Of a stretch of DNA of 64,000 nt, positions 26,796 through 43,517 are shown piece by piece. The notes under the pieces were generated by a model, which worked only from the letters and a program-made list of their open reading frames with translations, searched no databases and was not told where the DNA came from. The first letter of the stretch is position 1; each line of letters opens with the position of its first letter. A program made the position numbers and the translations under genes. This DNA comes from Desulfuribacillus stibiiarsenatis (GTDB lineage Bacteria > Bacillota > Bacilli > Desulfuribacillales > Desulfuribacillaceae): assembly GCF_001742305.1 (NCBI RefSeq), contig NZ_MJAT01000001.1, positions 186,001 to 250,000 of the forward strand, written 5' to 3'.

Positions 26796-28019
26796 ATGAG
26801 CGAACTAATTGATAACCATCAAGTAAGGAAAGAAAAATTAAAGAGCATCATTAAAAAGCTTCACCAAGGAGTATCTTTTGAGGAAGTAAAGAAAGAATTC
26901 CAACAGGAATTTGGTAGTGTTTCCACTGTTGAAATTGCTCAAATGGAGCAAGCGTTAATGGAAGAAGGCATGCCAGCAGAAGAAATTCGCAGATTGTGCG
27001 ATGTTCATGCTGAGGTGTTCAAAGGTAGTATCGAAGACGTACATAAGCCGACGAAAAACTGGGACGCTGTTCCGGGCCACCCAATTCATACGTTTAAGTT
27101 AGAGAATAGAGAAATTGAGAAGGTCATACAAGCAGTAGAGTCGAAATTAGCAGAATATGAAAAGCAACCAACAAAGGATGCTGGATATCAATTATTAGAG
27201 CAGTTAAACTTACTTTGGGATATTGATAAGCATTATAGCCGTAAGGAAAATCTATTGTTCCCGTACATTGAACGTCATGGTGTCACAGGACCTGCAAAAG
27301 TTATGTGGGGCGCAGACGATGAGATTCGCGGTTTGATTAAAACGGCAATTAAAATGTTGAAACAGGATGACGAAGGAAACCGCACGGAAGTCATTGCTAC
27401 CATCAAAGCAGCTATTGAGAAGATTGCAAGTATGATATTCAAGGAAGAAGATATTCTTTTCCAAACAGCCAGTAGATTTCTATCAGACGAAGAATGGTAC
27501 AAAATTGCCGAAGAGAGCGATGAAATTGGTTATTGCTTAACTGCACCAGCAGCAAAATGGAAGCCTGCTTCTATCCAAGATACAGATGTGACGGCTGATG
27601 AGCAAGCTCCGAAAGGGTATATCAAGTTTGATACAGGAATTCTAACAGTTCAAGAAATTAGTGCGATTTTCAATCACTTACCGATTGATGTTACGTATAT
27701 TGATAAAGATGATGTCGTAAAGTACTTTAGCCATGGACAAGAAAGAATTTTCATGAGAACAAAGGCGGTTATTGGACGTAACGTTTCTAACTGTCACCCA
27801 CCGCACAGTGTTCATATCGTTGAGACATTAGTGAATGACTTCAAATCTGGTAAGAAAGATAGTGAAGACTTCTGGATTCCATTAGGAGAAATGTATGTCC
27901 TCATCCGTTATTTTGCAATCCGTGATGAAAAGGGCGAATACATGGGCGCATTGGAAGTTACACAGAATATTAAGCCATTACAAGCGATTACTGGACAGAA
28001 GAGATTATTAGCTGATTAA
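26796..28019 (+). CDS. DUF438 / hemerythrin / PAS protein
   Basis: 407 residues, cytoplasmic. The N-terminal DUF438 domain ('LKSIIKKLHQGVSFEEVKKEFQ', 'EIRRLCDVHAEVFKG') is followed by a hemerythrin-like four-helix region with conserved His/Glu metal ligands: 'HPIHTFKLEN', 'DKHYSRKENLLFPYIERHG', 'WGADDEIR' and 'FKEEDILF'. The C-terminal PAS domain reads 'LPIDVTYIDKDDVVKYFSHG', 'RNVSNCHPPHSVH' and 'FWIPLGEMYVLIRYFAIRD'. Such proteins are thought to sense or handle oxygen, NO or iron in anaerobes. The Cys-His-Pro 'CHPP' loop could bind haem or metal. A GGGGG site precedes the ATG. Confidence 0.92.
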   Translation: MSELIDNHQVRKEKLKSIIKKLHQGVSFEEVKKEFQQEFGSVSTVEIAQMEQALMEEGMPAEEIRRLCDVHAEVFKGSIEDVHKPTKNWDAVPGHPIHTFKLENREIEKVIQAVESKLAEYEKQPTKDAGYQLLEQLNLLWDIDKHYSRKENLLFPYIERHGVTGPAKVMWGADDEIRGLIKTAIKMLKQDDEGNRTEVIATIKAAIEKIASMIFKEEDILFQTASRFLSDEEWYKIAEESDEIGYCLTAPAAKWKPASIQDTDVTADEQAPKGYIKFDTGILTVQEISAIFNHLPIDVTYIDKDDVVKYFSHGQERIFMRTKAVIGRNVSNCHPPHSVHIVETLVNDFKSGKKDSEDFWIPLGEMYVLIRYFAIRDEKGEYMGALEVTQNIKPLQAITGQKRLLAD

Positions 28020-28040
28020 AGATAAATATAAAAATATAGG

Positions 28041-28077
28041 CAGCTAGGGAGTTTTTTTACATCCTTAGTTGTTTTTT
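28041..28077 (+). terminator. weak terminator
   Basis: CTAGGGA and TCCTTAG can pair with a T-rich loop, followed by GTTTTTT. The hairpin is imperfect. The rest of the 287-base gap shows nothing else. Confidence 0.45.
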
Positions 28078-28306
28078 ATATGCCAAATTTTTTATATGCT
28101 AAGTTTTGTTTGAATGCTTAGTTTTTATATAATATTAAATTTCTATAAAATACACAAATCAGCAAAGGATAATTCGTACACTTGTGGAATATATAAGGAA
28201 GTCTATAAGTCTTGCTATACCTAATTTTTAAGTCTTCTTTAAGGTTCATAGACAATAATGGACATTGTAATTTGTATAAATGGCATTAGGGAGGCAATTA
28301 TCACAG

Positions 28307-30001
28307 ATGAAATTAAAGCTTAAGGTTGGTCAGAGAATTTTTATTGGATTCGGTGTATTATTATTGTTAATGGTAATTTCGGGGATTGTTACGTTCTATA
28401 ACATGAACAAAATTGAGTCGCTGAATAATCAGATTCTAGACGTTAACTATCCGAGTGTAAAAGCAGCAGAGCGGGTCCTCTTTATTACGTTAAATAAAGG
28501 GATGGATTTAAGCGAGTTTTTAATGACTGGTGATGAAAAGTATCTGAAAAATTATCAAGATAGCAAACCAAATCTATTGGCGGCCTTAGACGAAGTAGAA
28601 CGCTTAGCAATTGATGATTCCGAACGGGAGAATGTCGCAGCTTTACGGAAATTAATTGAGCAGTACGATCAAAAGGCTGAACAAGCGATTGATTTAAAAC
28701 GCAAAGGCTTGGGAGTCATTGCATCTGATGTTATGGTGCAACAAGTAATGCCTGTGTATAGGAAGATTAAAGTAGACGTCGATGTGGCGATAGCAGCGAA
28801 GCAAGCGGATACGAAAGTCTATGAACAAGAAATATTGGATAGCATTAGTATCGCAGAAAATGTTTCCACAATACTTACCATTACGAGTTTGATATTTGCT
28901 GGGCTGATTTCATGGCTTGTTGGTATTAGTATTACAAGACCGATTGCAAAGCTTTCAGAAGTGGCGAAACTAGTGGCAAATGGAGACCTACGAAATACAG
29001 TAGATAGTCAAAATGAAGACGAGATTGGACAGCTATCGAAGACGTTTAACACGATGGTCGTAGACTTACGCTCGGTAGTGGGGAAGGTCATGGAAACTTC
29101 GGAGAAGTTATCTGCTACTAGCCAGGATTTGGCGGCATCGACAGAAGAGACGGCTGCTTCCACGGAAGAAGTTGCTAAGGTTGTTACGCAGCTTGCAGAC
29201 GGTGCAAGTGACCAAGCGAAACACGTAGATGATACAGTATCGGTGATTAATCAATTGTCTGTAGGGGCCAAGCAAGTGGCTTCGAATGCGTCTAGTGTCA
29301 ATCTTTCTGCACAGAATGCGAACGAAGCAGCAAAGCAGGGCGAGAGAAGCTCTAAGCTTGCAATGAAGAAAATGGAGCAGTTACAGGATAGTATTCGAAA
29401 TATTGCCAATACAATTAGTGAATTAGGGGATAGTTCTAAGCAAGTAGGACAAATCATAGATGCAATTAAAGCTATCGCGAGTCAAACCAATTTATTAGCT
29501 CTAAATGCTGCTATCGAAGCAGCGAGAGCTGGTGAGCAAGGTAGAGGATTTGCTGTTGTAGCGGACGAAGTTAGAAAGCTGGCAGAAGAATCTAGTAATT
29601 CGGCAGACACAATTAACAATCTTATCATTGCGATTCAGAATGGAACGGATAGAGCTGTGCATGCCATGGGAAAAGGTACGCAAGAAGTAAGTGAAGGTGT
29701 GTCTACAGTGAAACAAGCAACAGACGCATTTGAACTGATTGTGCGTGAGATTGACTTAGTTGCACAGCAGATTGATCAAGTAACCACCGCAAGTCTTCAA
29801 ATGGCATCAGGTAGTGAACAGGTGGTGCAAGTGATGGAGACGATTTCTAATGTTGCGACAGAAACGGCGGCAAGCGCAGAAGAGATTGCTGCGTCCACTG
29901 ATGAACAGAACTCTGCCATTGAAGCGGTTGCCGAACGTGCTACTGATTTAGCGCATTTGGCCGAATCCTTACAGCAGGCTGTAGCAAGATTTAAGGTGTA
30001 A
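28307..30001 (+). CDS. methyl-accepting chemotaxis protein
   Basis: 564 residues. A first membrane helix (about 8-30), a periplasmic-side four-helix-bundle ligand domain (4HB_MCP type, with '[19 protein letters not shown]'), a second helix ending '[11 protein letters not shown]', HAMP ('[23 protein letters not shown]') and a cytoplasmic signalling domain with the hairpin tip '[41 protein letters not shown]' region. It feeds signals to CheA/CheW. The ATG at 28307 is preferred over 28280, because AGGGAGG (28288-28294) lies inside the longer frame. No che genes are nearby. Confidence 0.94.
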
Positions 30002-30040
30002 TATCTATCGGATAACAAATTATATAGCGTTAAAATATTC

Positions 30041-30078
30041 AAGCTGGTATCTGTCTGAGGCAGATACCAGCTTTTTAT
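30041..30078. terminator. bidirectional terminator
   Basis: AAGCTGGTATCTG / CAGATACCAGCTT, 13-bp perfect stem, T run on the right side. It lies between convergent genes. Confidence 0.9.
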
Positions 30079-30102
30079 CTCTTGAAAATTGTCTTTAGTA
30101 GC

Positions 30103-31050
30103 CTATGGGCGGTTGCTTAAGCCTTTCACCAAAATCCCTACGTTGTGCTTCATCATATCAACATAAGACTCTGCATTGCTTCCTTCTTTTCCAATAGCGT
30201 CGGTGTAAAGAGCGCCTGCGATTGGTACTTTCGTTTCATTTTCGATGGTTTTCATATAACGGGTATCAACAGTGGTCTCGATAAAAAGTGCAGGCAATTG
30301 CTTCTGGCGTACGATATCTACTACTCTGGAAATTTGTTGTGGTGTGCCTTCTTCGTGGGCGTTTAACTCCCAGATTCCGACCGTTTCAAATCCATACGCA
30401 TCGCCAAAATACTTCAGTGCGTTCTCACTCATGACAATCACTCGATATGATTCAGGTATCTTTGCAATTTCATCCAAGGTCCAATGATGCAGTTCACTTA
30501 GTTGTTGGATATACTCTTGTGCATTATCGTATAGTACTCTTGCATATTCTCGCTTCTGTTCTGAAAGAGCGTAATAGATGGTTTCGACATACGATTTCAC
30601 TAGTGTTGGATTTAACCAAGCATGCGGGTCTGGTTCCGTACTTCCTTCTAGAGGAATCGGGGTAATATCTTCTGCTGCGAATACAACTGGAGCATTGGAA
30701 ACATTTTGTAATGTGCGCAGAATCATATTTTCTAAGCCAAGGCCATTGAGAATCACTACATCCGCATCGTTGATTTTTCTCATATCACTTGGGATCATCT
30801 CATAGTCTTCTGGACTTTCGCCGATTGGGACGAGGTATTCGACCGTTCCGAGATCCCCGACAATGTTACTTGTAATATCAGCTAATATGGAAGTACTCGT
30901 GACAATATACATTCCTTCTTTCGCTACTGTTTCACGATCAGGAGAGCATCCCCCAAGAAATGTAGTCAAGAACAATAATATAGTTAAGCCAAGGGCTAGA
31001 ATCAGTACGCGACTGTTATATGGGAAAAGATTTTTAAAGATATCTTTCAT
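30103..31050 (-). CDS. Mn/Zn ABC transporter substrate-binding lipoprotein
   Basis: 315 residues, TroA/PsaA family. A lipoprotein signal ends in 'FLGGC' (Cys35). Expected metal ligands are His143 (DPHAWL), Glu209 (SENALKYF) and Asp284 (YTDAIG), and the Glu fits the manganese-type binding proteins. The first ligand differs: where the family has DPHEYE, this protein has SPEDYE, putting Glu81 in place of His. It is the last gene of the operon with permease and ATPase. The divergent regulator has a complete MntR metal site, so manganese is the likely substrate. It ends before a strong terminator. Confidence 0.92.
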   Translation of the reverse strand: MKDIFKNLFPYNSRVLILALGLTILLFLTTFLGGCSPDRETVAKEGMYIVTSTSILADITSNIVGDLGTVEYLVPIGESPEDYEMIPSDMRKINDADVVILNGLGLENMILRTLQNVSNAPVVFAAEDITPIPLEGSTEPDPHAWLNPTLVKSYVETIYYALSEQKREYARVLYDNAQEYIQQLSELHHWTLDEIAKIPESYRVIVMSENALKYFGDAYGFETVGIWELNAHEEGTPQQISRVVDIVRQKQLPALFIETTVDTRYMKTIENETKVPIAGALYTDAIGKEGSNAESYVDMMKHNVGILVKGLSNRP

Positions 31051-31080
31051 TTGATTGTACTCCTTTTAGAAAATAGTTCC

Positions 31081-31953
31081 TTATGTTTTTGCAATTTGCA
31101 TTTTTCGAGAACGCCATTTCTGGGTGATTAGCCCTTGTTTCGGTGAGAATAAGAAGCTTAATGCAAATAATGTGGATGCGACTAGTACGATTGATGCACC
31201 AGTTGCTATATCATAGATAAAAGAAAAATAAACGCCAACTACCGATGAAAATACACCAAATACACTGGATAACAGTATCATAATCGGTAGTCGATCTGTA
31301 AGTAAGTAAGCAGTGGCACCTGGTGTAATTAACATGGCAACAACTAAGATAATTCCGACAGTCTTTAAAGAAGCTACCGTCACTAACGAGAGCAATAGCA
31401 TGAGTCCATAATGAATTAGATTGATTGGCAGCCCGATAGCCTGTGCCATTGTAGGATCAAATGTACTAAGAAGGAGCTGTTTATAGAATAGAGCGATAGA
31501 AATCAAAACAATAGCTCCAATGATCGCAATCATTAATAAATCGCTTTGAGAAACGGCTAACACATTGCCAAAGAGTATATGCCATAGATCGACACCTGTA
31601 CCTCTACGCATCGTGATTAACACAACACCAAGAGCAAAGGCAGCAGTAAACATAATGCCAATGGCCGAGTCGTCCTTAAGCTTACTGTGGCGCGAGATGT
31701 ATCCAATCCCTAGTGCTGTTAGAACTCCAGTGAACACTGCTCCAATGAAGAAATTCAACCCTAACATATAGGCGACTACAACCCCTGGAAGAACCGCGTG
31801 TGAGATGGCATCCCCCATCAGCGCCATGCCTCGTAGAATTATAAAGCAACCGATTACACCGCATATGATTCCAACTAGTACTCCGGCAATCATCGCATTC
31901 TGTAGATATTGATAACTACCAAGCGCTTCGATAAAAAACATCAATTGATCCAT
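31081..31953 (-). CDS. Mn/Zn ABC transporter permease
   Basis: 290 residues with about eight membrane helices, ABC-3 family. Landmarks are 'GVIGCFIILRGMALMGDAISHAVLPGVVVAYMLG' near the N-terminus, 'MAQAIGLPINLIHYGLM' (the cytoplasmic coupling region) and 'KTVGIILVVAMLITPGATAYLLTDRL'. Its start codon shares a base with the ATPase stop, indicating tight translational coupling. It forms the membrane channel for the binding lipoprotein encoded downstream. Confidence 0.94.
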   Translation of the reverse strand: MDQLMFFIEALGSYQYLQNAMIAGVLVGIICGVIGCFIILRGMALMGDAISHAVLPGVVVAYMLGLNFFIGAVFTGVLTALGIGYISRHSKLKDDSAIGIMFTAAFALGVVLITMRRGTGVDLWHILFGNVLAVSQSDLLMIAIIGAIVLISIALFYKQLLLSTFDPTMAQAIGLPINLIHYGLMLLLSLVTVASLKTVGIILVVAMLITPGATAYLLTDRLPIMILLSSVFGVFSSVVGVYFSFIYDIATGASIVLVASTLFALSFLFSPKQGLITQKWRSRKMQIAKT

Positions 31954-32714
31954 TAATGATTCACCACCAATAACCCGTTTCTATTTCCGAACGACGCTAC
32001 TTTACCGTCATACGCTTCACGCAAGCAATCTACCTGGAATACTTCTTCGCTTTTTCCATAAGCAATTAAACGGTTTTTCAATAAAAGTAAGCTATCAAAA
32101 TAGTTCTCTGCCTTACTGAGATCGTGATGTACAACAAATAGAGTTTTGCCCTGATCCCGGATATCTTTCAAAATCTCCATAATCATCGATTCTGAAACAG
32201 CGTCAATCCCGACAAATGGTTCATCAAGAAATAGAACACTTGCTTCTTGTGCCAATGCCCGCGCTATGAATACGCGCTGTTGTTGCCCACCAGACAATTG
32301 ACCAATCTGGCGTTTGCGAAATTCGTTCATACCAACCAGTCTCAGACTTTTTGTCACAATATCTCGATCCTTTTGATTCGGCCAACCATACCATGAAATA
32401 TGAGGGTGTCTACCCATCATAACAACGTCCTCTACAAGAACCGGGAAATCCATATCGATCGATGAACGTTGCGGTACATAAGCAAGTTGTTTCCGTACAT
32501 TATCAACCGACTGATTCCAAAAAGAAACCGTCCCTGTGTCCGATGGTATGAATCCTATCATTGCTTTTATTAAAGTAGACTTACCAGCACCGTTGGGGCC
32601 AATGATTCCAATAATTTGTTTAGGGGTCACAGAGAATGTTATATTTTCAAACACTTTTTTTCCAAAATAAGAAACTGACAGATTATTTACCTTAATGACA
32701 GAATGTGCGCTCAT
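31953..32714 (-). CDS. Mn/Zn ABC transporter ATP-binding protein
   Basis: 253 residues. Walker A GPNGAGKST, Q-loop 'YVPQR', signature LSGGQQQR, Walker B 'VLFLDEPF' and H-loop 'VVHHD' are all present. The order ATPase, permease, binding protein is a common layout for Mn/Zn importers. AGGAGGGC stands 4 bases before the ATG. The gene is divergent from mntR across a 325-base region containing a palindrome (32728-32744). Confidence 0.96.
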   Translation of the reverse strand: MSAHSVIKVNNLSVSYFGKKVFENITFSVTPKQIIGIIGPNGAGKSTLIKAMIGFIPSDTGTVSFWNQSVDNVRKQLAYVPQRSSIDMDFPVLVEDVVMMGRHPHISWYGWPNQKDRDIVTKSLRLVGMNEFRKRQIGQLSGGQQQRVFIARALAQEASVLFLDEPFVGIDAVSESMIMEILKDIRDQGKTLFVVHHDLSKAENYFDSLLLLKNRLIAYGKSEEVFQVDCLREAYDGKVASFGNRNGLLVVNH

Positions 32715-32727
32715 CTAAGCCCTCCTC

Positions 32728-32744
32728 TCGAACAACATGTTCGA
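32728..32744. promoter_or_regulatory. palindrome before the metal ABC operon
   Basis: TCGAACA-ACA-TGTTCGA is a perfect 7-base inverted repeat, directly upstream of the ATPase ribosome site. It is a plausible operator. It resembles a LexA box but has five bases between GAAC and GTTC instead of four. The regulator is unknown. Confidence 0.45.
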
Positions 32745-32829
32745 TTGTAAAAAGTTAACCACGACTAAAACTTTGACAATAGTACTATATTACGCTTGAG
32801 TGGTTTTGGTGTTTGTCTTTTTATAAAGA

Positions 32830-32872
32830 AAATTAGAGTTCAGATGGAGTTTTACTCCAGCTGAACTCTAGT
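32830..32872. other. two-tier hairpin in the divergent region
   Basis: An outer stem AGAGTTCAG/CTGAACTCT encloses an inner TGGAGT/ACTCCA. There is no T tract immediately after it. It lies between the promoters of the ABC operon and mntR and may be structural or a terminator of a divergent transcript. Confidence 0.45.
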
Positions 32873-33039
32873 TGCACTTATTTCGCCTGTGCCCCTTGTG
32901 GGTAAAGCTTGGCAGCACTTATCTCCCACTTTAGAAGAGGGAGTATCAGTAAACGCCGCTGAGATAAAGTAGACAAATGGCATATCATACAGCAAATTAA
33001 CATATTCTGTAGTATGAGGTGGCGTTCAGGGGTGATGAT

Positions 33040-33543
33040 TTGGCTGACAAAGAGAAGTTCTTCACCGCAAGGGGTTATGAAATATCAGCAGATGAGGACA
33101 CACTAACACCGAGTATGGAAGACTATATCGAGATGATTTATCGCCTTAGTGGTAACGTAGGGCATACTAGGACCCATGATTTGGCTAGTAGTTTAAACGT
33201 ACAACCCCCATCGGTAACAAAAATGATTCAAAAGCTCAATGATAAGAACTTAATTGTGTATGAGAAGTATGGAAATATACAATTGACTGTGCAAGGACAG
33301 GAGCTAGGGAAATACTTTCTAGAACGGCATAACATTGTGAAAAATTTCCTCATAGTATTAGGTATAGAGGAAAATGTGCAGAAGCACGTCGAGCAAATCG
33401 AGCATTATATAGGCTGGAATACGTTTCAAGCATTCCAGACCTTCGTAGAATTTATGGAAGAAAATGAACATATCCAAAAACAATACATTACGTTTCGAAA
33501 CAATCGGGAAAAGTTCTTACTTTCTGAAAAAAATACGTTATAA
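33040..33543 (+). CDS. mntR: manganese-responsive DtxR-family regulator MntR
   Basis: 167 residues. All manganese ligands of Bacillus subtilis MntR have counterparts: Asp and Glu in 'TPSMEDYIEMIY', His in 'ERHNIVKNFL', and Glu, Glu, His in 'HVEQIEHYIGW'. The recognition helix 'VQPPSVTKMIQKLNDKNLIVYEKYG' is also conserved. MntR represses manganese uptake when manganese is plentiful. TTG at 33040 is preferred because AGGGGTGAT lies just before it; GTG at 33019 has no site. Compared with B. subtilis MntR it has about 20 extra N-terminal residues, so the start is uncertain. It is divergent from the metal ABC operon. Confidence 0.92.
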   Translation: MADKEKFFTARGYEISADEDTLTPSMEDYIEMIYRLSGNVGHTRTHDLASSLNVQPPSVTKMIQKLNDKNLIVYEKYGNIQLTVQGQELGKYFLERHNIVKNFLIVLGIEENVQKHVEQIEHYIGWNTFQAFQTFVEFMEENEHIQKQYITFRNNREKFLLSEKNTL

Positions 33544-33580
33544 TGGAATAGGGATCGTCTGAATAGGTAGGAGAGATCGA

Positions 33581-34036
33581 ATGACTAGACAAACTATTAT
33601 TCCTATTTCCATTTTTGTATTGTGTATGGTGTTACTTATGGGATGCGGAGGTGCGAAAATGGGAAATGAAGATACTAAACCAACAATGAGTGATGTTGAT
33701 TATGAAATTATTGATATTGAAGAATTAGAACTTAAGGAAAAGGAAGAAATCGTTACTTGGTACGATGATGTATTCGACCAAGAAGGTGTTCATAGTATGG
33801 ATGGAACCAAAGGTTTTAGTAAGTATACGTATATATTAATAGCAGACGGTGAAAAGGCGACTGGCGGCTACGCAATCCAAATTGAGTCTATGAAAGGTAA
33901 CGAGGATGAAATTCGGATTGTTGCGAAGGTAAGAGAACCGCAAAAGGGTGAATTTGTAACACAAGCGTTTGGTTATCCGCATTTGCTTCTACGCATTAAT
34001 CAAGATTCCAGGAAAATACTCCTTGAAAAACAGTAG
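33581..34036 (+). CDS. PrcB-like lipoprotein
   Basis: 151 residues. A lipoprotein signal ends in 'LLMGC'. After an acidic linker, residues about 80-148 match the PrcB C-terminal domain: 'YILIADGEKATGGYAIQIE', 'DEIRIVAKVREPQKGE' and 'AFGYPHLLLRI'. PrcB was first described as a subunit of an outer-surface protease complex in Treponema; the Bacillota proteins have no known role. A GGAG site precedes the ATG. It may share a transcript with mntR, whose stop is 38 bases upstream. Confidence 0.8.
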   Translation: MTRQTIIPISIFVLCMVLLMGCGGAKMGNEDTKPTMSDVDYEIIDIEELELKEKEEIVTWYDDVFDQEGVHSMDGTKGFSKYTYILIADGEKATGGYAIQIESMKGNEDEIRIVAKVREPQKGEFVTQAFGYPHLLLRINQDSRKILLEKQ

Positions 34037-35774: not shown

Positions 35775-35850
35775 GGGGCCTTAGCTCAGCTGGGAGAGCG
35801 CTTGGCTGGCAGCCAAGAGGTCAGGGGTTCGAGCCCCCTAGGCTCCACCA
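35775..35850 (+). tRNA. tRNA-Ala(GGC)
   Basis: A complete 76-nt cloverleaf: acceptor GGGGCCT/AGGCTCC, anticodon arm CTTGG-CTGGCAG-CCAAG with anticodon GGC, T-arm AGGGG-TTCGAGC-CCCCT and encoded CCA. Its 3' two-thirds are duplicated at 38108, so it is the attachment site of a small island. Confidence 0.98.
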
Positions 35851-35853
35851 AAT
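35792..35853 (+). repeat. left direct repeat (attL) of the tRNA-Ala island
   Basis: 62 bases from the tRNA D-region to just beyond CCA, repeated at 38108-38169 with one mismatch (35846 C versus T). The functional tRNA is kept on this side. Confidence 0.92.
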
Positions 35854-35859
35854 CGCAGA

Positions 35860-35890
35860 AATACGAACTTCGTTTAAGTTCGTATTTTTA
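35860..35890 (+). terminator. tRNA-Ala terminator
   Basis: AATACGAACTT / AAGTTCGTATT with a short loop and T run. Confidence 0.88.
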
Positions 35891-35920
35891 ATGTGTAGGA
35901 AAATAATTACTTTTTGAGGC

Positions 35921-36019
35921 ATGAGTGTAGACAGAGAGAAATTAAAACTCATAATCGATCAAATATCGGATCAAGATGCGTTGGAAGTATATGACTTTGT
36001 CGCAAACTGCTTTAGATGA
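35921..36019 (+). CDS. short ORF (32 aa), possible gene fragment
   Basis: Encodes a 32-residue helical peptide starting 'MSVDREKLKLIIDQISDQDALEVYDF', which resembles the N-terminal helix of small antitoxin-like or DUF2281-type proteins. The only GAGG is a single base before the ATG, too close for good initiation. Further coding-like sequence follows in another frame up to about 36065. I read it as a remnant rather than an active gene. Confidence 0.25.
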   Translation: MSVDREKLKLIIDQISDQDALEVYDFVANCFR

Positions 36020-36078
36020 ATTAGCTGGTATTCGTGCATATCCACCAGATGTCAAAGAATCTCCACCAATGATAAAGA

Positions 36079-36110
36079 ACACGATTCTCGTAACGAGGGT
36101 CGTGTTTTTT
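36079..36110 (+). terminator. terminator of the ACACGATTCTC family
   Basis: AACACGATTCTCG pairs with CGAGGGTCGTGTT (two G.U pairs), then TTTTTT. Similar hairpins occur at 38177 and 43485. Confidence 0.85.
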
Positions 36111-36186
36111 GCAATAAATCAAAAAAGTAGTTAAAAATTTTAACTCGACAAAAAAAGACAAAATTCGGGCAAGGAATTATTGGTAG

Positions 36187-36195
36187 TTTGTCGAA
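36187..36195 (+). promoter_or_regulatory. Spo0A-box-like sequence
   Basis: TTTGTCGAA matches the 0A-box consensus TTTGTCRAA. An inverted copy with one mismatch lies at 36144-36152. About two exact matches are expected by chance in a window this size, so the evidence is weak. Confidence 0.25.
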
Positions 36196-36256
36196 TGAGG
36201 TAAGATAATAATCAAATTTACTATAAATGGTTAATTTAGTGTGGGAGGGTGGTAAT

Positions 36257-36895
36257 GTGAAAAAAGAAATAATAATTTTAACAAAATCAATAAAAAGAAA
36301 TGAGTACTGTGTTGCGGGAATAGAAGTATCAACAGGAGAATGGATTAGAATTGTGTCAAATGATAGATCTTCTGAATATGCAATACTAAAGAAGCATATG
36401 AATTATGCAGATGGAACAGAAGCAGATATATTTGATGTTGTTGAAGTAGATTTCATTAAACCAGTAGGTACTGACATTCAGCCAGAAAACTGGTTACTCA
36501 ATGATGCAATTAAATGGGTAAAACGCAGGAAATCTAATGTAAGTGAGATACTACAGTTGCATCCATTTGATACACCAAGCTATATTTTTTATAATACGTC
36601 TAATGCAATTACAAAAAGAGAAATTGATTTAAATAACCATCGCTCTTTGCTGTTGGTAAAAGTTTCGAATGCATCTGTGTTTATAAAGACTTATGAGCGC
36701 AAAAGATACAGTATATGCTTCTCATATAATGGAAATAGTTATAAATTTATCTCAATCACAGATATACCGATTCGTAGTAAATTTAATAACAAAATCGATG
36801 GTTTTTATAATCTTGGTGATAATATTTCTGTAGTTTTTAGCCTTGCGGATGAATACAAAGGTCAATATTATAAAATTGCTGCACAAATTTTATAA
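36257..36895 (+). CDS. dual-OB-domain-like protein
   Basis: 213 residues, cytoplasmic. The opening 'EIIILTKSIKRNEYCVAGIEVSTGEWIRIVSND' followed by 'DIFDVVEVDFIKPV' is the pattern I associate with the dual-OB (DuOB) domain family; the second half 'RSLLLVKVSNASVFIKTYERKRYSICFSYNGNSYKFISITD' fits a second beta barrel. The domain is thought to bind nucleic acid and is often found with DUF488 genes, as here. A GTG start at 36257 follows GGGAGG by 8 bases; the ATG at 36227 lies before that site. It is the first gene of the tRNA-Ala island. Confidence 0.7.
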   Translation: MKKEIIILTKSIKRNEYCVAGIEVSTGEWIRIVSNDRSSEYAILKKHMNYADGTEADIFDVVEVDFIKPVGTDIQPENWLLNDAIKWVKRRKSNVSEILQLHPFDTPSYIFYNTSNAITKREIDLNNHRSLLLVKVSNASVFIKTYERKRYSICFSYNGNSYKFISITDIPIRSKFNNKIDGFYNLGDNISVVFSLADEYKGQYYKIAAQIL

Positions 36896-36941
36896 TATTG
36901 ATTTATCAGATTACATAAGTTGAACCTCAGGAGGATATTTG

Positions 36942-37007
36942 TTGGGATTAAAGTGCGTTTTCATATATAATAATCCTAAGAATAACTTAAAGGGGATTTT
37001 AAATTGA
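36942..37007 (+). CDS. possible 21-residue leader peptide before the first DUF488 gene
   Basis: A perfect AGGAGG (36929-36934) lies 7 bases before TTG at 36942. The frame encodes 21 residues and ends with TGA at 37005-37007, overlapping the TTG start of the DUF488 gene (37004). Such an overlap would couple translation. It might instead be a chance site, or mark an old start. Confidence 0.35.
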   Translation: MGLKCVFIYNNPKNNLKGILN

Positions 37008-37636
37008 AAAAGCTTTATACTATAGGTCATTCTACTCATTCAAACGAATATTTTTTAACGTTATTAAAACAAAATCAAATAAATTGTGTCATTGATGTTA
37101 GAAGTATGCCTTATTCAAAATATGCGTCTCAATATAACAGAGACGAACTTAAGAAATATTTAAAGAACAATGGATTATTTTATATATTTATGGGTAAGGA
37201 ATTTGGTGCACGTCAAACAGATAAATCGCTGTTTTCAAGTGACGGTTACGTAGATTTTGAAAAAGTAATTAAAACTCCTTCATTTAAAAATGGAATGGAC
37301 AGGGTTTATGATGGATTACAAAAAGGGTTTAATATAGCTTTTATGTGTGCAGAAAAAGACCCAATGGATTGTCATAGAAATATTCTTGTAGCTAGAGCGT
37401 TTTATGTGCAAAATTGTCAAGTTGTTAACATTCTTAATGATGGAAGACTGGAGACTCAAGAAGAAGTTTATCAGAGGCTTTTAGATTATTATTTTCCCAC
37501 TAGAGAACAAAGAACAATTATGGATTTTTTAGATGGGGAAAAATCAGAAAATGAATTAATACAAGAAGCATTACGCTTAAGAAATAAAAAGATTGCTTAT
37601 AGCGAAGATGAGAGCGAGGCGGTGCCGTTAATATGA
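37004..37636 (+). CDS. DUF488 protein, long form
   Basis: 210 residues. DUF488 hallmarks are present: 'TIGHSTHSNEYFLTLL' at the N-terminus, 'VIDVRSMPYSKY' (31-40), 'GKEFGAR' (64-70) and the conserved Cys115-x7-Cys123-His-Arg ('CAEKDPMDCHR'). A 45-residue acidic C-terminal extension follows. DUF488 proteins have been linked to the rhodanese-like fold and to nucleic-acid-related conflict systems, but the reaction is unknown. TTG start at 37004 with GGGG upstream. It overlaps the next DUF488 gene by four bases (ATGA). Confidence 0.88.
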   Translation: MKKLYTIGHSTHSNEYFLTLLKQNQINCVIDVRSMPYSKYASQYNRDELKKYLKNNGLFYIFMGKEFGARQTDKSLFSSDGYVDFEKVIKTPSFKNGMDRVYDGLQKGFNIAFMCAEKDPMDCHRNILVARAFYVQNCQVVNILNDGRLETQEEVYQRLLDYYFPTREQRTIMDFLDGEKSENELIQEALRLRNKKIAYSEDESEAVPLI

Positions 37637-38079
37637 AGCTATTTACCATAGGTTTTACAAAGAAGCCTGCCAGTACATTTTTTGATTTGCTAAAAAACAA
37701 TAATGTAAAGACGGTAATAGATATTAGACTTAATAATTATTCTCAGTTAGCGGGATTTGCAAAAGGGAACGATCTGAAATATTTTTTGAAAGAAATTTGT
37801 AATATTGATTATACTCACAACATTGATTTAGCACCAACAAAGGAAATATTAGATAATTATAAGACAAAGAAAATAATCTGGTCAGAATATGTAGATCAAT
37901 TTACTGATCTTTTAGAAAACCGATATATGGCTGAGTATATCTCAAAAAATATTAGTGAATTTGAAAACGCGTGTTTGCTTTGTAGTGAACTGAAACCAGA
38001 CAAATGTCATCGGAGCTTAGTAGCTGAATATATAAAAAAAAGTTATCAAGAATCAAATTTCGAAATTAAACATTTATAA
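37633..38079 (+). CDS. DUF488 protein, short form
   Basis: 148 residues, a different DUF488 subtype from its upstream neighbour. It has 'TIGFTKKPASTFFDLL', 'VIDIRLNNYSQLAGFAKGNDLKYFL' (29-53), 'LAPTKEILDNY' (66-76) and Cys117-x7-Cys125-His-Arg ('CSELKPDKCHR'). The NYSQLAGF and LAPTK segments are typical of the short single-domain members. The ATGA overlap with the preceding gene indicates one operon, so the two paralogues probably work together with the dual-OB protein. It ends 29 bases before the right direct repeat. Confidence 0.9.
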   Translation: MKLFTIGFTKKPASTFFDLLKNNNVKTVIDIRLNNYSQLAGFAKGNDLKYFLKEICNIDYTHNIDLAPTKEILDNYKTKKIIWSEYVDQFTDLLENRYMAEYISKNISEFENACLLCSELKPDKCHRSLVAEYIKKSYQESNFEIKHL

Positions 38080-38107
38080 AAATAAGGGTAGTGAAACTAA
38101 CTCTAAC

Positions 38108-38169
38108 GGGAGAGCGCTTGGCTGGCAGCCAAGAGGTCAGGGGTTCGAGCCCCCTAGGCTCTACCAAAT
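38108..38169 (+). repeat. right direct repeat (attR) of the tRNA-Ala island
   Basis: A 62-base copy of the 3' part of tRNA-Ala(GGC) with one mismatch in the acceptor stem. It lacks the 5' acceptor strand and so is not a tRNA gene. It ends the 2.3-kb island. Confidence 0.92.
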
Positions 38170-38176
38170 ACAATAA

Positions 38177-38213
38177 AAACACGGTTCTCAAATTAAGAGG
38201 ATCGTGTTTTTTT
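38177..38213 (+). terminator. terminator of the ACACGATTCTC family
   Basis: AAACACGGTTCTC pairs with GAGGATCGTGTTT and is followed by TTTTT. It probably was the original terminator behind tRNA-Ala before the insertion. Confidence 0.8.
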
Positions 38214-43484: not shown

Positions 43485-43517
43485 GACACGATTCTCATGA
43501 AGAGAGTCGTGTTTTTT
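43485..43517 (+). terminator. terminator of the ACACGATTCTC family
   Basis: ACACGATTCTC pairs with GAGAGTCGTGT around ATGAA, followed by TTTTTT. Confidence 0.88.

Follow-up and report, generated by a model that had tools for sequence, protein, structure and literature searches.

Described Systems of the DuOB-DUF488 Kind

A function in DNA-end processing during biological conflicts was reportedly predicted by Burroughs and Aravind in 2023 for a clade of systems that combine a dual-OB protein (DuOB) with DUF488 proteins. The DuOB, DUF488-N3 and mSLOG-DUF4326 conflict systems are presumably those represented by the Pfam families PF22557, PF22751, PF22565, and PF14216. The 2023 study, which appears as a citation in PMC12419801, is probably also the comparative work behind the association of dual-OB and DUF488 proteins named in an earlier interpretation of the present locus that was made from the nucleotide letters alone (the sequence-only reading). 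The database PADLOC-DB 2.0 contains a related defence candidate, PDC-M45, with models for three proteins designated A, B, and C. Candidates of this sort were put forward in a preprint about defences that are embedded in immune systems; most of them are unvalidated (PMC12988326). The literature search found no paper on DuOB and none naming PDC-M45.

The locus described here is found in a stretch of 64,000 nucleotides from Desulfuribacillus stibiiarsenatis, in the following called the window. Its three adjacent genes form one operon and match PDC-M45 A, B, and C, respectively; since all three proteins match, the set is an intact further example of an already catalogued defence candidate and not a new kind of system. 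Nothing decisive separates it from PDC-M45, the copy in the window being the sole cargo of a tRNA-docked insert without an integrase. It shares with the DuOB-DUF488 conflict systems the DuOB Pfam domain and an adjoining pair of DUF488 proteins with a Cys...Cys-His-Arg loop, while it differs from the DuOB/mSLOG-DUF4326 systems in having a long DUF488 protein as the third subunit. When compared to tRNA-integrated genomic islands, the insert has the duplicated tRNA 3' end at its borders and the foreign G+C content, but it lacks an integrase and comprises only 2.3 kb and three genes. The sequence-only reading regarded the locus as typical of defence or conflict systems. The catalogue entry and the mobile insertion at a tRNA gene agree with this, the anti-phage role being a putative one.

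The Three Genes and Their Products

The three genes are all on the plus strand, and they are the only substantial open reading frames of that strand between the repeats (36227/36254-36895, 37004-37636, and 37633-38079), as expected for the single operon-like gene set proposed earlier. Gene A (36254..36895) encodes DuOB, a protein of 213 amino acids matching PF22557 (1e-56) and PDC-M45A (1.2e-37). An alternative ATG start is found at 36227, but the GTG at 36254 is the likelier one due to the GGAGGGTGG-like ribosome-binding site upstream of it. Gene B (37004..37636) has a TTG start and encodes a long DUF488 protein of 210 amino acids (PF04343, 5e-23; PDC-M45B, 1.8e-63), while gene C (37633..38079) encodes a short one of 148 amino acids (PF04343, 2.6e-21; PDC-M45C, 5.6e-61), which also matches DUF488-N3a (PF22751, 4e-10). 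Genes B and C share the bases ATGA at 37633-37636, and a gap of 108 nucleotides separates DuOB from the long DUF488 gene. Upstream of this gap, at 36862-36901, an inverted repeat with perfect arms of 16 nt and a loop of 8 nt spans the stop codon of DuOB; it is a possible signal for RNA processing or attenuation.

The sequence-only reading had noted the overlap and a Cys-x7-Cys-His-Arg center in both DUF488 proteins, and the alignments bear this out. The motif is C115/C123-H-R in the long protein, where it is invariant among 83 aligned sequences, and C117/C125-H-R in the short protein, where it is invariant among 122. In DuOB the residues Cys19, Gly22, and Arg32 are invariant across 97-103 sequences, and all the invariant residues of DuOB and of the DUF488 proteins are intact in the window. 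Plain DNA binding alone would not require the invariant Cys19 and Arg32 in DuOB.

For none of the three proteins did a sequence search of solved structures give a credible match. The structural comparisons were made using predicted models. In the DuOB model (pLDDT 96.7) the N-terminal half is similar to OB domains of telomere end-binding protein and BRCA2 (Z 8.1, rmsd 2.4-3.4 over 84-93 residues). The C-terminal half resembles the OB domain of the phage restriction factor BrxL (Z 7.1, rmsd 2.9 over 80 residues). Foldseek ranked the HIN-200 DNA sensors first for the whole DuOB (E 2.7e-4), but with TM values of only 0.33-0.43, and HIN-200 was absent from the top 50 of VIA-align. Among viral models, baculovirus LEF-3 was ranked first by Foldseek, but this match was not significant. 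The models thus point to a tandem OB protein of the DNA-binding type, in keeping with the nucleic-acid binding suggested earlier, and imply no kinship to the matching proteins. The tandem or single DNA-binding OB folds of HIN-200 (AIM2, IFI16, p202) and of the telomere end-binding proteins may resemble the tandem OB fold modelled for DuOB, but the identity is about 5-11%, and the Cys19/Arg32 site is DuOB's own.

The best matches to the model of the short DUF488 protein (pLDDT 92.2) were phosphatases of the PTP fold and diphthine synthase (Z 6.4-7.5, rmsd 3.0-4.0 over 98-114 residues). The invariant C117 ends the strand 113-117, and the invariant R127 lies in the helix 126-137. In the model the cysteine thus closes a strand and the arginine is placed in the next helix, as in the cysteine phosphatases of the rhodanese-phosphatase superfamily. 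The spacing is different, however, as PTP has C-x5-R while the short DUF488 protein has C-x9-R, and its loop contains a second Cys-His.

Conserved Gene Neighborhoods

In the genome collection a profile of the short DUF488 protein matched at least 578 encoded relatives, of which the loci of 80 were examined; in viral contigs it matched 34. The cassette is small, intact, and widespread. Among the matches listed, DuOB adjoins the short DUF488 gene in 44 of the 49 genomic loci with both flanks present, a count that includes one fusion (L070), and in 19 of 22 fully flanked loci from viral contigs. The association named in the sequence-only reading is therefore upheld, and the DUF488 proteins are found together with dual-OB proteins well outside the window. 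The three genes move as a set among bacteria, and even among archaea.

DuOB and the short DUF488 protein are nearly always accompanied by a second enzyme, which is either a long DUF488 protein or mSLOG-DUF4326. The main gene orders are B-C-A, A-B-C, and A-C-D, where D denotes DUF4326, also with an mSLOG domain. A few Bacillota have yet another kind of partner, a separate DUF488-N3a protein; in four loci (L034, L040, L041, and L042) that form a Bacillota branch of cassettes, it replaces the long DUF488 protein as the second enzyme. Judged from these gene orders and partner types, DuOB and the short DUF488 protein are a constant core, and the third subunit is swappable. The set of dual-OB, long, and short DUF488 proteins named in the sequence-only reading therefore holds for the first and the last of these, while the long protein is interchangeable with at least two other partners. 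In a quick tree of the C proteins, in which many forks are weak, the D-type cassettes are largely found on one branch, and solo C genes fall inside the branches of the cassettes. Natural fusions also occur: L070 encodes A and B as a single polypeptide, and L163 does so for B and C. These fusions suggest that the three proteins act together. As far as checked, three points go beyond the earlier picture, namely the exchange of the third subunit, the fusions, and the docking at tRNA 3' ends that recurs in other loci as described below.

The Insertion at tRNA-Ala and Recurrent Placement at tRNA Genes

The integration target is a tRNA-Ala (GGC) gene found by ARAGORN at 35775..35850 on the plus strand. 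Its last 59 bases and three flanking bases form a 62-nt direct repeat, present as a proximal copy within the intact tRNA (35792..35853, plus strand) and a distal copy (38108..38169, plus strand) that lacks the 5' 17 bases of the tRNA. The two copies are identical at 61 of 62 positions with a spacing of 2316, so the repeat claimed earlier, with its one mismatch and the 2.3 kb it frames, is as described. When the 15 kb downstream of the tRNA were scanned, the distal copy had a score of 45, and since the maximum for shuffled sequence was 12, it is not a chance match. The insert has a G+C content of 30.2%, while stretches of the same size across the window have a mean of 36.8% (sd 2.6%). As the sequence-only reading stated, no integrase is found in the 2.3-kb insert, neither among its open reading frames nor in any frame of the 5' gap at 35851-36260.

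One genome of the same family, G001, was compared. It has the tRNA-Ala gene and the same upstream gene order (corresponding to 26796-34036 of the window), but no DuOB and no cassette. The terminator following its tRNA can be aligned to the sequence flanking the distal repeat, where a terminator of the same type is found at 38179..38207 on the plus strand, and not to the flank of the proximal repeat. Since the tRNA of G001 lacks the cassette and its terminator matches the distal flank, the cassette is an insertion. This fits a model where the element brought a new tRNA 3' end, while the old end, now the distal repeat, was displaced 2.3 kb downstream together with the ancestral terminator. The genes farther downstream of the tRNA differ between G001 and the window, and G001 is therefore not an exact empty site; none was found with this single same-family genome. 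The empty site proposed as a check is thus matched by the tRNA and the upstream synteny, but not by the downstream genes.

Presumably the element was inserted by a tyrosine recombinase that either acted in trans or was lost later. Five tyrosine recombinases are encoded elsewhere in the same genome. In the stretches checked none of them lies by a tRNA-Ala gene, and the one that has tRNAs in its locus adjoins those for Asp, Met, Leu, and Val, so this source was rejected.

Placement at tRNA genes is a repeated pattern. In the 80 genomic loci, taken from at least 578 relatives, seven tRNA genes were found in the 144 kb within 1 kb of a cassette versus four in the 914 kb farther out (odds about 11, Fisher p 2e-4). 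In all seven loci (L062, L101, L103, L108, L110, L114, and L130) the 3' end of the tRNA faces the cassette, as it does in the window; the chance of this is 1 in 128. They include Pseudomonas (L110), a Methanosarcinaceae archaeon (L114), and Gastranaerophilales (L101). The neighbors checked in these three are ordinary chromosomal genes, among them those for SAICAR synthetase, saccharopine dehydrogenase, MatE, SepSecS, and an outer membrane efflux protein. A home-made profile, crude enough for a divergent integrase to escape, found no integrase in any of the seven loci. Convincing direct repeats were not found at these cassettes, clear borders being kept in the window alone. Cassettes that recur at tRNA 3' ends and have no integrase raise the concrete question of how such minimal units move. 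In the Streptomyces locus L108 (7089-8345 and 10555-10643) the cassette has a tRNA-Ser gene on one side and a Prim-Pol gene on the other, and is possibly carried as cargo by an integrative element.

Distribution and Genomic Settings

Among the 101 relatives searched, DuOB is confined to the window's own genome, and across the phylum it was found in 13 of 398 genomes, which belong to 13 genera. The genes are thus not a core set among the relatives. DuOB was absent from the phage records searched, where the short DUF488 protein matched just distant proteins of Gordonia phages. Used as a lone query, DuOB gave no match in viral contigs, unlike the short DUF488 protein.

Cassettes of the A-C-D type are found in many viral contigs and on 4.2-kb plasmids, such plasmids carrying cassettes in Klebsiella and Citrobacter; other cassettes are found on plasmids of Acinetobacter and Moraxella. 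On an Agrobacterium plasmid the cassette adjoins a CBASS operon (cyclase/HORMA/AAA). In Escherichia coli one cassette is part of an e14-like prophage near mcrA, and another is found in a small integrase-bearing island at ffs; in the latter the first protein is named "dual OB domain-containing protein" by NCBI. Within the same loci, 186 PADLOC families were found near the cassettes versus 98 in the distal genes, families and not genes being counted and defence genes occurring in both sets. On plasmid pH205 (L046, 132-5820) an ISEcp1-blaCMY-36 unit separates a shortened DuOB from the DUF488 and DUF4326 genes, leaving the cassette broken. Short DUF488 genes without DuOB are found on IncHI2 and Acinetobacter plasmids (L184, 7001-7432; L187, 7001-7441), where the neighboring genes encode UvrA or UvrB, a formaldehyde-responsive repressor, and cytochrome bd.

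Possible Functions of the Cassette

The explanation that we tentatively prefer is that the set is a mobile three-protein defence candidate in which DuOB binds invading DNA, possibly at its ends, and two cysteine phosphotransferase-like enzymes act there. The tandem-OB protein would bind the DNA of the invader, probably as single strands or broken ends, which would be exposed during the entry and replication of a phage or plasmid. It would carry a two-enzyme unit consisting of the DUF488 paralogues, each predicted to have a phosphatase fold and a cysteine loop. The pair would remove or transfer a phosphate-linked group on the bound DNA end, and such processing would block replication or repair of the invader. 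We infer the complex, its DNA-end substrate, the enzyme chemistry, and the anti-phage outcome. The explanation as a whole is favored by the repeat with its foreign G+C content, the site without a cassette in G001, the PDC-M45 matches, the adjacency of DuOB and the short DUF488 gene, the fusions, the patchy distribution, the carriage on plasmids and prophages, the two cases of a CBASS or mcrA neighbor, and the predicted folds. The prediction that DUF4326, a sister domain, acts on terminal phosphates (PMC9503650) also counts in its favor. Against it count the cassettes found among ordinary chromosomal genes, the invariance of Cys19 and Arg32 in DuOB, and the structural Z-scores of just about 7-8, as a common fold does not prove a common function. 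If the cassette defends, metal-independent chemistry of a phosphatase fold would enter phage immunity, and there would be a bacterial parallel to the tandem-OB DNA sensors.

The cysteine enzymes could instead act on derivatives of NAD+ or ADP-ribose or on free nucleotides, with DuOB linking this chemistry to DNA or RNA, and defence would then come about by making, destroying, or depleting a nucleotide. The mSLOG domain of the DUF4326 partner is consistent with this, as are the fusions to SLOG, Macro, and NADAR domains that led to the proposal that DUF4326 processes terminal phosphates on ADP-ribose (PMC9503650). The cassette in the window has no SLOG domain, however, and DuOB resembles OB folds that bind DNA, which makes a nucleotide-signal system somewhat unlikely. 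A more far-reaching form of the preferred DNA-end explanation regards DuOB as a prokaryotic HIN-200-like sensor of foreign DNA ends, activating a two-headed DUF488 enzyme whose third subunit can be exchanged, in a bare integrase-less cassette that docks at the 3' side of tRNAs in both bacteria and archaea. Taken as a whole this is doubtful.

Repair or damage tolerance, where the proteins would clean damaged ends for the element or the host as an accessory trait and not as immunity, is quite unlikely. The similarity of DuOB to the OB folds of repair and telomere proteins would fit such a role, and so would the DuOB-less short DUF488 genes beside uvrA or uvrB and formaldehyde-responsive regulators, together with the solo genes placed inside the cassette branches of the tree. 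The full set, on the other hand, has a patchy distribution of the mobile-element type, and no repair genes adjoin the cassette in the window. That the set serves its carrier, be it a plasmid, prophage, or island, and not the cell, for instance through addiction, competition, or counter-defence, is very unlikely. Its genes are compact and overlapping, and A-C-D cassettes are carried by 4.2-kb plasmids and many viral contigs, but no toxin-antitoxin match was found in Pfam, two conserved enzymes and a subunit of the DNA-binding type are different from the known toxin-antitoxin pairs, and none of the phage records searched has DuOB. It is hardly credible that the repeat is a decayed tandem duplicate of the tRNA and the genes are old residents outside any island, as neither an integrase nor an exact empty site might suggest, given the low G+C content of the insert, the ancestral terminator side retained at the distal copy as in G001, and the lack of DuOB in all the other 100 relatives.

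Other Features of the tRNA-Ala Region

A candidate third copy of the tRNA at around 36060 was rejected, as it is merely a terminator motif following about ten tRNA-like bases, and the motif recurs at 43486 and twice in G001. Nearly identical terminator hairpins (ACACGRTTCTC...GAGNRTCGTGT) are found in the window at 36079-36105, 38179-38207, and 43486-43512 and in L168 near 7522 and 9318, and they occupy several unrelated sites in genomes of the family. A single frameshifted small gene is suggested between the tRNA and DuOB (35922-36080), where short peptide-like stretches occur in two different frames; they have no match in Pfam. A second integrase-less insert at tRNA-Ala (GGC) is found in another genome (G039, L167 1291-3201). 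It is about 1.8 kb long, is bordered on both sides by a 75-bp repeat at 88%, and carries a glyoxalase-like gene, an HTH gene, and a small unknown gene.
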